Shown: one piece after another, positions 35,799 through 52,681 of the stretch
Numbering within the stretch: position 1 is the stretch's first letter
Layout of the letters: every line of letters begins with the position of its first letter
Assembly (NCBI GenBank): GCA_949130485.1
Contig: OX422197.1
Coordinates: 1,650,603-1,714,602, forward strand
DNA: 64,000 nt
Source: Agelas oroides
Taxonomy: Eukaryota > Porifera > Demospongiae > Agelasida > Agelasidae
Direction: 5' to 3'
The notes under the pieces: model-generated
What the model saw: only the letters and a program-made list of their open reading frames with translations
Told to the model about the DNA's origin: nothing
The model's database searches: none
Made by a program: the position numbers and the translations under genes

Positions 35799-36034
35799 CT
35801 AAATCCTTTTCTCATCTTCAATTTCAGTGAAGTGTTCTTCTCCAGTGTTTTTCACGTCACCGAAAGATATGGATTGAAAATCAAACTGCTCCTTTCTGCG
35901 CCTGTTCTGCTTGTACTTGACAAAGCTAAATATTGCAATGGTTGCAAGAATTAAGATGATGAGGAAGGAAATTATGGAGATTGTCGAGGCAATGGCTGCC
36001 ACAGCTGAGTCACTCAGTAGGCCGGTGGGGGCAG
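35799..36034 (-). CDS. Ectodomain gene exon 12: transmembrane helix and tail
   Basis: Phase 1 acceptor (TTATTGCAG). 78 residues: short stalk, 23-25 residue hydrophobic helix, RRRK stop-transfer, FDFQSISFGDV, and an acidic end. No tyrosine signalling motif is seen. Confidence 0.8.
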
Positions 36035-51000: not shown

Positions 51001-52681
51001 GCTGGAAAACCAGTCGAGATGCTGCACAAGCTCCACACAAAGATCATCAGTTTACAGCCAGTGCATCGTCTGAGTACATTTTCTAAAGTTTCTGTGGCAT
51101 TTATGTCAACTTGTCAACTTCGTGTGAGATAATCTCCATGTAGAAAGGGCTCTGCAAAGTGTTTGACACAGAATGATAAAGTAGCCTCGTTCCCAGGCCC
51201 CGCCCAGCTTTCCGTCGCTTGCAGTACGGAAAAGCGGTAGAGGGCCTGGAATAATTCATCACGTGAGTGACGTAGGGGTAGAGAGAAGGGTAGAGAGGAC
51301 TTAATTGAGTGTAGGCGGATCGTCGATGTGCCCACGCACTAGTTTGGTTCCCAGACCCTTCCTGTATGGGCGGGGCGAGAGAGGCGAGGGAAGGAAGGGT
51401 CTGGGAACCAAACTACCCACGCACGTAGTTGATCGATAATCGACAGTACACGTAGCTGTTTTTTAGTAGGAGCCCGTTCAGGCAGTTTTTTCGAACAATA
51501 AGCGCAGAGAAAACTTGAGCAAAGCCTAGGAAAGGGCCGCCTTGGCGTTTAATAGCGCCTTGAAAGCCATTCTCCGAGGTGTACAGCGGTCAGTTTGCCA
51601 GGTAAGCGAGTAGGTTAGCGTGATTTTCGAATGTACGGGTCTGTGTAAGCTCACCATAGCTTTCCGTACTGCCAGGTAATGTAGCATAGTGCCGTCTAGT
51701 CCCATTCTGTCGGCCATAAAGCTATCGCAACTGTATTCTGTCCATACAGCGTGGGCGAGTTCATTCGTTCGCCCACATGTCTCTCTACCTATGACGTTTC
51801 TCACGTGATAAATTTTACCATTCGCTCGCGGGGCCTGGGAACGAGGCTAATGATAAAGACCACTCCAAATCGTGTCCTTAACAGACAGGTTTTCTTTGAA
51901 GCCTTGATAAACAACCCGCCTTGTCCTGCAAGCCACACCCTTCACAAAACCAAGCCTATCCGTGTCCATGAAGGCAAATGTCAGCTAAAGGGACAGTTTG
52001 AAGTCTAATCTGTACTAAACACTTCGCAGATTCCTTTCTACACAGAGATGATCTCGCACAAACAATTTGACTTGCTTGACTACGATGCGCAATGCAAAGC
52101 TCTAGTCTCGCAAGCCACACCCTTCGCAGGAGAGAGGAAGGGTCTGGTCACGCTGCAACCATTGAGTTGTCGCCACGACAGAAACTTGTCGTGACCAATC
52201 AGATCCGCGCTCTTCGGGTATATATTATCTATGGTTGCAGCGTGACCAGACCCTTCCTCTCTCTGCGAAGGGTATGGCTTGTGAGACTATGCAAAGCTCC
52301 ATATACTCACTTATCAAGGATTGAATCTGGATCTGTTGCACATGATTGATCATCAACACAAGGGTGTACTGATTTTCATTGGTTCTATTTGCTATGACTA
52401 TGCTGAATGATAAATACATGTAGGCCAGCTAGGTTCTTCGTGGTAATAGCGCTAGTGCTGAACTCCTAAGCTTAATTTAGTATGCTTCCACGGTGGGCCA
52501 GCTGCTAATGGGAACCACAGGAGTTGAGAAGCAGGCCCGCCCGCCTGTAAATATCTAGTAGCTAGGCTATTTATAGCTTTATCATGCAGTTCGTGCGATG
52601 TGCAGCCAGAACCGCGCACTTACCCTGCAAGGTGGTCAGCAGAAAGGCACAGCAACACAGGATAGCTCTCCAGCTCTCCAT
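35799..52681 (-). CDS. Single-pass membrane protein with duplicated six-repeat cysteine ectodomain, twelve exons, 939 aa
   Basis: Exons: 52681-52624, 48065-47746, 45397-45020, 44571-44272, 43960-43808, 42803-42710, 42525-42206, 41859-41482, 40973-40677, 39120-38962, 37002-36876, 36034-35799; phases agree (2820 nt). Exon 1 is a signal peptide (MESWRAILCCCAFLLTTLQ). Exons 2-6 and 7-11 are two copies of one five-exon unit. Each unit holds three repeats with the signature C-x(12-17)-C-x5-C-[TD]-G-x2-C. Exon 12 has the transmembrane helix (IISFLIILILATIAIFSFV), KYKQNRRRK and an acidic tail. Sequons are plentiful (NCT, NGS, NFS, NTT). I know no family with this signature. Probably a surface adhesion or recognition protein; ligand unknown. 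Confidence 0.75.
36115..36168. mobile_element. Minimal TAGCCTCG hairpin element, 54 bp
   Basis: Two inverted termini with an 8-bp loop, flanked by GTCAAAACA and GTCGAAACG (7 of 9). Lies just upstream of exon 12 of the ectodomain gene. Confidence 0.8.
36876..42525 (-). CDS. Ectodomain unit 2 (exons 7-11)
   Basis: Same order as unit 1: GVSSQQPEVC exon, ALAP exon, ASLS exon, VVDLTGLVLD exon, and IDLMSSWLQANN...LLPYSEIPVTT. Exons 7 and 8 are about 95 percent identical in protein to exons 2 and 3; exon 11 is only loosely like exon 6. The final donor is G|GTACGTAA. Confidence 0.75.
37104..37131. repeat. Perfect palindrome
   Basis: GTGTACATGTGC, a 4-bp loop, then its reverse complement, in an intron of the ectodomain gene next to G-rich low-complexity DNA. 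Confidence 0.7.
37486..37629. mobile_element. TAGTCTCG foldback element
   Basis: TAGTCTCGTGCCCAGAC and a decayed inverse enclose a second palindrome (GACATTCGGCTGATTCCTC and inverse). It interrupts DNA that is continuous in the paralogous copy near 39390. Confidence 0.7.
38434..38850. repeat. 70-bp minisatellite, six copies
   Basis: Unit includes GTATGAAACCTTGTTAAGGG, TTTTCATGCATCGTAGACTC and CAGTGCTTTGATCA; the last copy is shortened. Intron 10 of the ectodomain gene. Confidence 0.95.
39236..39320. mobile_element. TAGCCTCG foldback element, 85 bp, perfect 9-bp TSD
   Basis: TAGCCTCGTTCCCAGGCTCC...inverse. AGGTTACCC is present at both 39227-39235 and 39321-39329, but only once at the paralogous empty site 37417-37425. 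Confidence 0.95.
39640..40262. repeat. Two adjoining tandem arrays, about 93-bp and about 135-bp units
   Basis: 39640-39850: unit with GATGCTTTGAGACCATTTCT and CAGAATGCAGGGA, about 2.4 copies. 39838-40262: three copies of a unit ending TTAGCCTCGTCCCCAGGCCC, a terminus of the TAGCCTCG family, so part of an element was carried into the array. Confidence 0.85.
40974..41425. repeat. GGGAGGA purine tract (unit 2)
   Basis: About 450 bp of GGAGGGA/GAGGAAGG in intron 8 of the ectodomain gene. On the minus strand it is the pyrimidine tract before exon 9. Long Pro/Ser frames over it are artefacts. Confidence 0.95.
41868..41948. repeat. (GT)n microsatellite (unit 2)
   Basis: Pure GT run directly before the acceptor of exon 8 (minus strand). 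Confidence 0.98.
42640..42710. repeat. 24-bp repeat at the exon 6 donor
   Basis: Units of GTACCTGGTGTCCCTGTACCGACA. On the minus strand each supplies G|GTACTG or G|GTACAG donors in phase 1. Confidence 0.8.
42710..48065 (-). CDS. Ectodomain unit 1 (exons 2-6)
   Basis: Repeat A in exon 2 (CQPVGNCTGLMC), repeat B in exon 3 (CSTTSNCDGVHC), repeat C in exons 4-5 (CRLREGCDGFWC, then LRSWSVMNSITVNLP), and a linker exon 6 (IDLATLSLQGNN...LLPYSEIPVAV). Exon 6 runs into a 24-bp repeat that offers several in-phase donors. Introns hold a 44-bp minisatellite, (GT)n and a GGA tract. Confidence 0.75.
43400..43700. repeat. About 17-bp minisatellite GCCCACTCCCACCAAGA
   Basis: Roughly seventeen imperfect copies (CACCAAGAGCCCACTCC with TTCCAAG and TACCTAG variants) in intron 5 of the ectodomain gene. 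Confidence 0.9.
44580..44900. repeat. GGGAGGA purine tract (unit 1)
   Basis: Occupies the same intron position in unit 1 as 40974-41425 does in unit 2, with different length and pattern. Confidence 0.9.
45412..45507. repeat. (GT)n microsatellite (unit 1)
   Basis: Pure GT run before the exon 3 acceptor, positional equivalent of 41868-41948. Confidence 0.98.
46008..46890. repeat. 44-bp minisatellite, about twenty copies
   Basis: Unit TACTGTAAATATAGGTTCTA plus CATGTGTAGTTGTTATACAT plus TGTA, with rare single-base variants (ACGTG/ATGTG). Intron 2 of the ectodomain gene; no counterpart in unit 2. Confidence 0.97.
48134..48557. mobile_element. PIF/Harbinger-like MITE, 424 bp, TTA target duplication
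   Basis: TIRs GGCCACTCCAAGTTGATTCA and inverse (about 30 bp), flanked by TTA on both sides (48131-48133, 48558-48560). The paralogous intron in unit 2 (about 42588) has a single TTA and no element. Three-bp TTA duplications with GG-starting TIRs are typical of Harbinger-type elements. No transposase inside. Confidence 0.8.
48888..49200. mobile_element. TAATCTCG/TAGTCTCG foldback element, 313 bp, perfect 9-bp TSD
   Basis: Flanked by CCCTAATGG at 48879-48887 and 49201-49209. Inner arms include GGTCTGGTGAAC and its inverse. Intron 1 of the ectodomain gene. Confidence 0.85.
49210..51181. other. Intron 1 of the ectodomain gene, no coding seen
   Basis: Contains a TAGTCTGG-ended inverted repeat at about 50330-50700 without a convincing target duplication, and otherwise unremarkable sequence. 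Confidence 0.45.
51182..51849. mobile_element. TAGCCTCG foldback element, 668 bp, perfect 9-bp TSD
   Basis: ATGATAAAG occurs at 51173-51181 and 51850-51858. Termini TAGCCTCGTTCCCAGGCCCC and inverse. Interrupted by a second family member (51340-51415). Confidence 0.9.
51340..51415. mobile_element. Nested TAGTTTGG foldback element, 76 bp, perfect 9-bp TSD
   Basis: TAGTTTGGTTCCCAGACCCT and inverse; CCCACGCAC at 51331-51339 and 51416-51424. Inserted inside the older 51182-51849 element. Confidence 0.9.
52103..52289. mobile_element. TAGTCTCG foldback element, 187 bp, 9-10 bp TSD
   Basis: TAGTCTCGCAAGCCACACCC and inverse, flanked by TGCAAAGCTC on both sides (52093-52102, 52290-52299). Confidence 0.9.
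52624..52681 (-). CDS. Ectodomain gene exon 1: signal peptide
   Basis: 19 residues with a Cys/Leu-rich hydrophobic core; donor CAGG|GTAAGT, phase 1, exactly the phase required by exon 2 (GVSSQQPEVC). Confidence 0.75.

Follow-up and report, generated by a model that had tools for sequence, protein, structure and literature searches.

In the sponge Agelas oroides, contig 15 (OX422197.1) of a 259-Mb, 141-contig genome assembly carries on its minus strand a gene whose product is predicted to be a type I membrane glycoprotein with an ectodomain built from six tandem copies of an unnamed domain, arranged as two units of three. The gene occupies positions 35799-52681 of the 64,000-nucleotide window analysed here (contig positions 1650603-1714602), and all coordinates below are those of the window unless another contig is named. 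Taking the evidence together, the explanation that we consider best, and hold with moderate confidence, is that this glycoprotein is an adhesion or recognition receptor whose two units arose by duplication and were afterwards homogenised.

A twelve-exon gene with two five-exon units

Joining the 12 predicted exons, all on the minus strand, gives a single open frame of 944 codons, in which each of the 11 introns has a GT donor and an AG acceptor and the phases are consistent throughout. Between a signal-peptide exon and a transmembrane exon stand two ordered sets of five exons with equal phases and with lengths, in unit 1 and unit 2 respectively, of 320/320, 378/378, 300/297, 153/159 and 109/127 nt; an earlier sequence-only reading of this DNA had described such paired sets with equal lengths and phases, and these were recovered.

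Exon 1 (52624..52681) supplies the start codon and the signal peptide MESWRAILCCCAFLLTTLQ. In unit 1, exon 2 (47746..48065) encodes the core of domain 1 with its first five cysteines, exon 3 (45020..45397) the last strand of domain 1 and the core of domain 2, exon 4 (44272..44571) the last strand of domain 2, a Pro/Thr stretch and the start of domain 3, exon 5 (43808..43960) the middle of domain 3, and exon 6 (42695..42803) the sequence LLPYSEIPV, which a by-eye comparison of motifs suggests is the last strand of domain 3 in degenerate form. Unit 2 repeats the series: exon 7 (42206..42525), with the core of domain 4, is the partner of exon 2 (307/320 nt identical), and exon 8 (41482..41859) that of exon 3 (365/378 nt identical), followed by exon 9 (40677..40973), which pairs with exon 4 (266 identities, 31 mismatches and 3 gap positions), exon 10 (38962..39120), which pairs with exon 5 (136 identities, 17 mismatches and 6 gap positions), and exon 11 (36876..37002), which pairs with exon 6 (86 identities, 16 mismatches and 32 gap positions). 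Exon 12 (35799..36034) encodes the transmembrane helix, a basic stop-transfer sequence, a short cytoplasmic tail beginning QFDFQSISFGDV... and the stop codon. At the end of exon 6, a 24-nt tandem repeat (42647-42695) holds three in-frame splice donors; the two additional donors correspond to alternative exon ends at 42671 or 42647, and the length of the exon could differ by 8 residues per repeat step.

The 944-residue protein thus runs from a signal peptide through two units of three repeats to a transmembrane helix and a short tail, and it contains 35 cysteines and 28 N-glycosylation sequons. One strong hydrophobic segment lies near the C terminus, where the best window begins at residue 887 with a Kyte-Doolittle mean of 2.99. 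Together with a signal-like start, this single transmembrane helix, as judged by hydropathy and reading, gives the predicted topology of a type I protein. About 40 residues follow the helix. By eye, this tail resembles those of two likely paralogous genes on contig 20, QYQFHQMKFSEVTED and QYEFQQLKFSEVNQD, and the window gene and these closest paralogues seem to share the candidate tail motif Q-[FY]-x-F-[QH]-x-[ILM]-x-F-[GS]-[ED]-V.

The exon model might have wrongly merged two neighbouring genes that hold three domains apiece, a reading to which the closest paralogous loci lend some weight since they seem to hold one such domain set per gene. We consider it very improbable. Exon 6 connects both units and is in the correct phase at each end, and the minus-strand frames of 42206-43960 contain no open stretch of at least 22 residues with a 20-residue hydropathy mean above 1.8, so that unit 1 would be without an anchor there and unit 2 without a signal peptide. 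A single gene is the simpler reading of these frames.

The repeat is part of a putative six-cysteine domain

The sequence-only reading had also drawn attention to six repeats of the form C-x5-C-[TD]-G-x2-C, each preceded by C-x(12-17). All six were located, at residues 42, 169, 327, 462, 589 and 746, with upstream spacings of C-x12-C, C-x17-C and C-x16-C; in 20,000 shuffles of the protein's own sequence, the looser pattern C-x5-C-x-G-x2-C occurred 0.0019 times on average and never more than once.

Comparison across the family indicates that this signature falls within a more extended domain of roughly 130-150 residues, normally with six cysteines, whose last strand is encoded by the following exon. 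We defined the family by C-x(about 10-20)-C-x5-C-x4-C, a fifth cysteine ([PKV]C) and a terminal motif of the P-[YHR]-T-x-[IV] type with the sixth cysteine. This terminal strand is conserved and usually opens the exon after the core exon, as in VPYTQIPIDTSGC, VIEYTLIPIDTSNC and LPRTTIPIDRSHC. Domains 1 and 2 of each window unit have every element of the definition, with LIPPTLVPLNTTEC closing domain 1 and FPRHTIILDRTNC closing domain 2; domain 3 of each unit has cysteines one to four and neither of the last two, and its terminal strand, assigned by reading, is degenerate and without a cysteine. As the terminal motif in the next exon ends the domain, the fifth exon of each unit, previously taken for a linker, would hold the end of domain 3 instead.

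A scripted scan of the sequence around the family loci picked out 36 sites that carry the first cysteines together with the fifth; the site on contig 3 at 13660791 is spurious. The terminal motif was found in 29 of the remaining 35 cores, 21 by regular expression and 8 more by reading, and neither script nor reading found it for the other six (contig 1, 13567698 and 21608455; contig 14, 6874369 and 6883220; contig 9, 432023 and 6226334). Because the third domains of the window lose the fifth and sixth cysteines together, a disulphide between Cys5 and Cys6 is suggested, the joint loss being one case (in two copies) and the six cores having no recognised partner.

Searches against known domains and folds

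That the repeat corresponds to no named domain, as first supposed, agrees with searches of Pfam, NCBIfam and PDB sequences and folds, none of which gave a convincing match. Pfam returned no family for any of seven window exon proteins (7/7, E up to 10); exons 6, 10, 11 and 12 were searched only as part of the whole protein, for which the sole match was DUF433, at 17.3 bits below the cut-off of 23.6. Among 24 family members, Pfam listed eight families, each in one member, with a best E of 0.0078 and none above its curated cut-off; these sub-threshold matches included GH32C (E 0.0078), DUF7436 (0.009), TMEM219 (0.08), the TMEM131L Ig-like model (0.086) and NEAT (0.2). NCBIfam, at E up to 1, gave four families, three of them in one member each and IsdC in 2/24 members (E 0.033 and 0.1). 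We take IsdC to be a NEAT-type protein, and no weak theme other than NEAT appears more than once; the two IsdC-matching members are near-identical, one of them is the NEAT-matching member, and we do not rely on this theme. The Pfam and NCBIfam matches, far below cut-off and mostly in single members, were regarded as chance, as were PDB profile matches at E 0.24 or worse. PDB sequence searches gave no credible match for the repeats, and the profile search listed one match at E up to 10 and no NEAT protein.

The sequence-only reading had proposed predicting the structure of one repeat. The best AlphaFold models of exon 3 (mean pLDDT 58.8, pTM 0.53; the remaining four models 45-50) and exon 2 (mean pLDDT 65.9, pTM 0.50) both place a single helix ahead of seven or eight beta strands, an order that was thus obtained, at low confidence. 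Both were built from window sequences only, using the same six aligned sequences in differing order, and are therefore not independent. Foldseek against the PDB listed the 50 best matches for each model, and none reached E 0.001 (0/465 and 0/264 at E up to 10). Models of this strength do not allow the fold to be described as new.

It is quite possible, in our view, that the domain is a strongly diverged form of a known beta domain (Ig-like, NEAT-like, TMEM219-like or GH32 C-terminal) that sequence searches miss. The beta-rich models point this way, as do the weak matches to GH32C, DUF7436, TMEM219, TMEM131L, NEAT and IsdC with their recurring NEAT theme; however, all of these matches lie far below their cut-offs (IsdC 12-14 against 155.85 bits, NEAT 12.5 against 32.8), the PDB profile search listed no NEAT protein, and the Foldseek comparison, made with low-confidence models, is equally negative. 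For immunoglobulin and NEAT-type folds specifically, the window exons have no Pfam match, the weak Ig-like and NEAT/IsdC matches falling in other members.

A search of the literature by text and not by sequence, including passages of PMC5450542 and PMC8662651, showed no sponge domain of this kind, which counts as weak evidence. Relatives were also sought in prokaryote and viral contigs, where they might stem from host contamination, and none of the 26 and 24 pattern matches was confirmed.

A family of domain copies in the same genome

The window gene is one member of a family whose domain occurs in at least 38 copies across eight contigs (1, 3, 5, 9, 11, 14, 15 and 20), which bears out the family part of an earlier proposal of a lineage-specific surface recognition family. 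The count comes from genome searches with five domain or exon proteins, plus one copy added by reading, and is a lower bound among the best candidates listed: six copies in the window on contig 15, six on contig 20, two on contig 3, two on contig 11, nine on contig 9, seven on contig 14, five on contig 1 and one on contig 5. It comprises the 35 scripted cores, the two third domains of the window and the contig 9 copy at 6268512, which is without one motif cysteine; another contig 9 copy, at 6266756, is apparently frame-shifted.

The closest relatives are two likely genes on contig 20 (677.8-681.2 kb and 682.0-684.7 kb) and one on contig 3 (13.658-13.661 Mb), which are 35-43% identical to the window's exon 2 and 3 types. 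As read from their open frames, they contain types 1 and 2 once each, in the same order, followed by a hydrophobic segment and a short tail. They thus share with the window gene the order of types 1 and 2, an HTIILD-type terminal motif, the hydrophobic segment and the short tail, but have one set of two to four domains where the window gene has two sets of three.

On contigs 9, 14 and 1, domains follow the order A-B-C, with C present three times on contigs 9 and 14 and once on contig 1. Two of the loci on contig 1 (13.57 and 13.59 Mb) adjoin EGF exons (Pfam EGF_CA, E 6.9e-11, 8.1e-11 and 1.6e-7), and the contig 14 copies lie downstream of Ser/Thr/Pro-rich stretches. Such neighbours are usual in surface proteins and count for a surface role. 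No transmembrane exon assignable to the family was found in the contig 11 flanks or downstream of the contig 14 and contig 1 copies.

Uneven divergence of the two units

The window's type 1 exons and those of contigs 20 and 3 cluster together in a 27-domain tree (support 100/99), and within this cluster the two copies from the window are sisters (97/85); the tree is midpoint-rooted, carries a long-branch warning at the type 1 split, and 10/24 of its inner branches reach the support mark. Since contigs 20 and 3 have types 1 and 2 singly and in this order, the window gene alone seems to have undergone the doubling.

The two units do not differ evenly. Exon pairs 2/7 and 3/8 are 96-97% identical, with 13/318 sites differing in the first (dN 0.036, dS 0.064) and 13/378 in the second (dN 0.021, dS 0.082), whereas over codon-aligned sites 32/297 differ in pair 4/9 (dN 0.071, dS 0.268) and 20/153 in pair 5/10 (dN 0.127, dS 0.195). 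Taken together, 26/698 sites differ in exons 2 and 3 against 52/450 codon-aligned sites in exons 4 and 5 (Fisher p 4.7e-7). The introns of the units have unequal lengths and, simple repeats aside, align only near the exons: before exon 2 (97 columns at 82%), before exon 3 (89 bp at 98%, partly a dinucleotide run), after exon 5 (40 bp at 88%) and after exon 2 (127 bp at 70%). The exon 4/5 intron gave no alignment between units, and the exon 3/4 intron aligns at about 70% via GA-rich repeats.

The account that fits this pattern best, we infer, is that the duplication is older and that conversion later acted on the exon 2 and exon 3 tracts. A block copied in one piece at the date implied by exons 2 and 3 should still have introns that align at close to the identity of those exons. 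Insertions that turn over intron sequence could instead account for the intron mismatch; this is insufficient because it leaves the gap in divergence between exons 2 and 3 and exons 4 and 5 unexplained. The high identity of pairs 2/7 and 3/8 would suit a simple tandem copy of about 5.5 kb made recently, the size that the sequence-only reading had proposed for an internal duplication, or an assembly haplotype artefact, yet the offsets between paired exons range from 3.5 to 5.8 kb, intron lengths differ, alignment away from exons is scarce, and the exons have diverged to unequal extents. We rejected both forms of this idea on the intron comparison and regard it as improbable; duplication with later conversion remains our preferred account of the units.

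Separately, the unit 1 intron that divides exon 2 from exon 3 contains a tandem array (46045-46900) with 19.5 copies of a 44-bp unit at 98% identity; the counterpart intron in unit 2 is only 346 bp long.

Neighbouring and other loci

Elsewhere in the window, a 2122-codon open frame on the minus strand (18459-24827) matches Sec16 (PF12931, E 2.4e-39; PF12932, E 1.7e-12), and an exon on the plus strand (30501-31082) matches the p53 DNA-binding domain (PF00870, E 1e-9), which places a p53-family gene about 5 kb from the candidate receptor gene. Two similar minus-strand open frames at 5108-5722 and 6040-6567 (NNSIVTLEDIGEGDDALLC...GIYRCEIPD) have by eye the look of an Ig-type ectodomain and may possibly belong to a second surface-receptor gene; neither has a Pfam match at E 0.01, nor the first at E 1. 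Rfam gave no match within the window at gathering score.

Silicateins carry a change of the catalytic cysteine to serine and mark siliceous sponges. Near 300 kb on contig 4, a row of exons matches a silicatein fragment query, and in one silicatein-like exon (QGQCGASYAFSAIGAIEG...EQNIIDCS) serine replaces the catalytic cysteine, which fits a demosponge; the three other contig 4 matches that were read are ordinary cathepsin-like exons.

Proposed function and comparison with known systems

The predicted topology, glycosylation sites, cysteine-rich repeats and short tail, with the EGF or Ser/Thr/Pro-rich neighbours of other copies, lead us to infer a role in surface adhesion or recognition, and it is in this form that the recognition part of the earlier proposal is retained. 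The glycosylated rod of domains would meet a ligand on another cell, in the matrix or on a microbe, and the tail motif would recruit a cytoplasmic partner. An ancestor with one unit may have undergone an internal exon-block duplication that led to the present two-unit gene, after which exons 2 and 3 of both units would have been homogenised, probably by gene conversion.

Several points weigh against this interpretation. The splicing is a model built on genomic sequence alone, the AlphaFold models are of low confidence, and the tail motif consists of three sequences aligned by eye, which the contig 3 tail, RQYKIHRMMQMKKRYGNS, matches poorly and for which searches are weak (E 0.066 between the window and contig 20, 0.37 between the contig 20 tails). 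Moreover, the evidence does not single out recognition from other roles, for example a structural or secreted-ligand role.

Sponges tell self from non-self and sort microbes, by means of receptors that to our knowledge are poorly known. The family might serve sponges in allorecognition or immunity, as a receptor system that exon conversion has both diversified and homogenised: it is multigenic and partly arrayed, it includes similar repeated copies (the third domain type three times on contigs 9 and 14), and the similarity between the window units is confined to exons. The modest family size argues against this reading, as does dN, which is lower than dS in each of the four pairs compared and gives no hint of diversifying selection having acted between the units; we consider the reading unlikely. 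A more far-reaching version, in which a self/non-self receptor family would be built on a new six-cysteine domain, with exon blocks duplicated and converted exon by exon and with receptor sets differing between individuals, seems to us decidedly unlikely.

A family of likely surface proteins with a Pfam-unrecognised domain provides a circumscribed group of candidates for such receptors, and the way in which the two units differ from one exon to the next makes concerted evolution tractable within a single gene.

Sponge aggregation factors carry Calx-beta repeats and a Wreath domain; the whole protein of the window gene has no Pfam match to Calx-beta. The likeness to them is that of a cell-adhesion gene family of sponges, discussed together with allorecognition in PMC5450542. 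The SRCR receptors, in turn, are a cysteine-rich receptor family that has undergone a large expansion in a sponge, according to PMC10855680, and here the likeness lies in these features; the difference is that there is no Pfam SRCR match in the window gene's seven exons, in its whole protein or in the 24 members. A type I receptor built from repeats is a familiar kind of protein, and the possible novelty of the present one lies in its domain.

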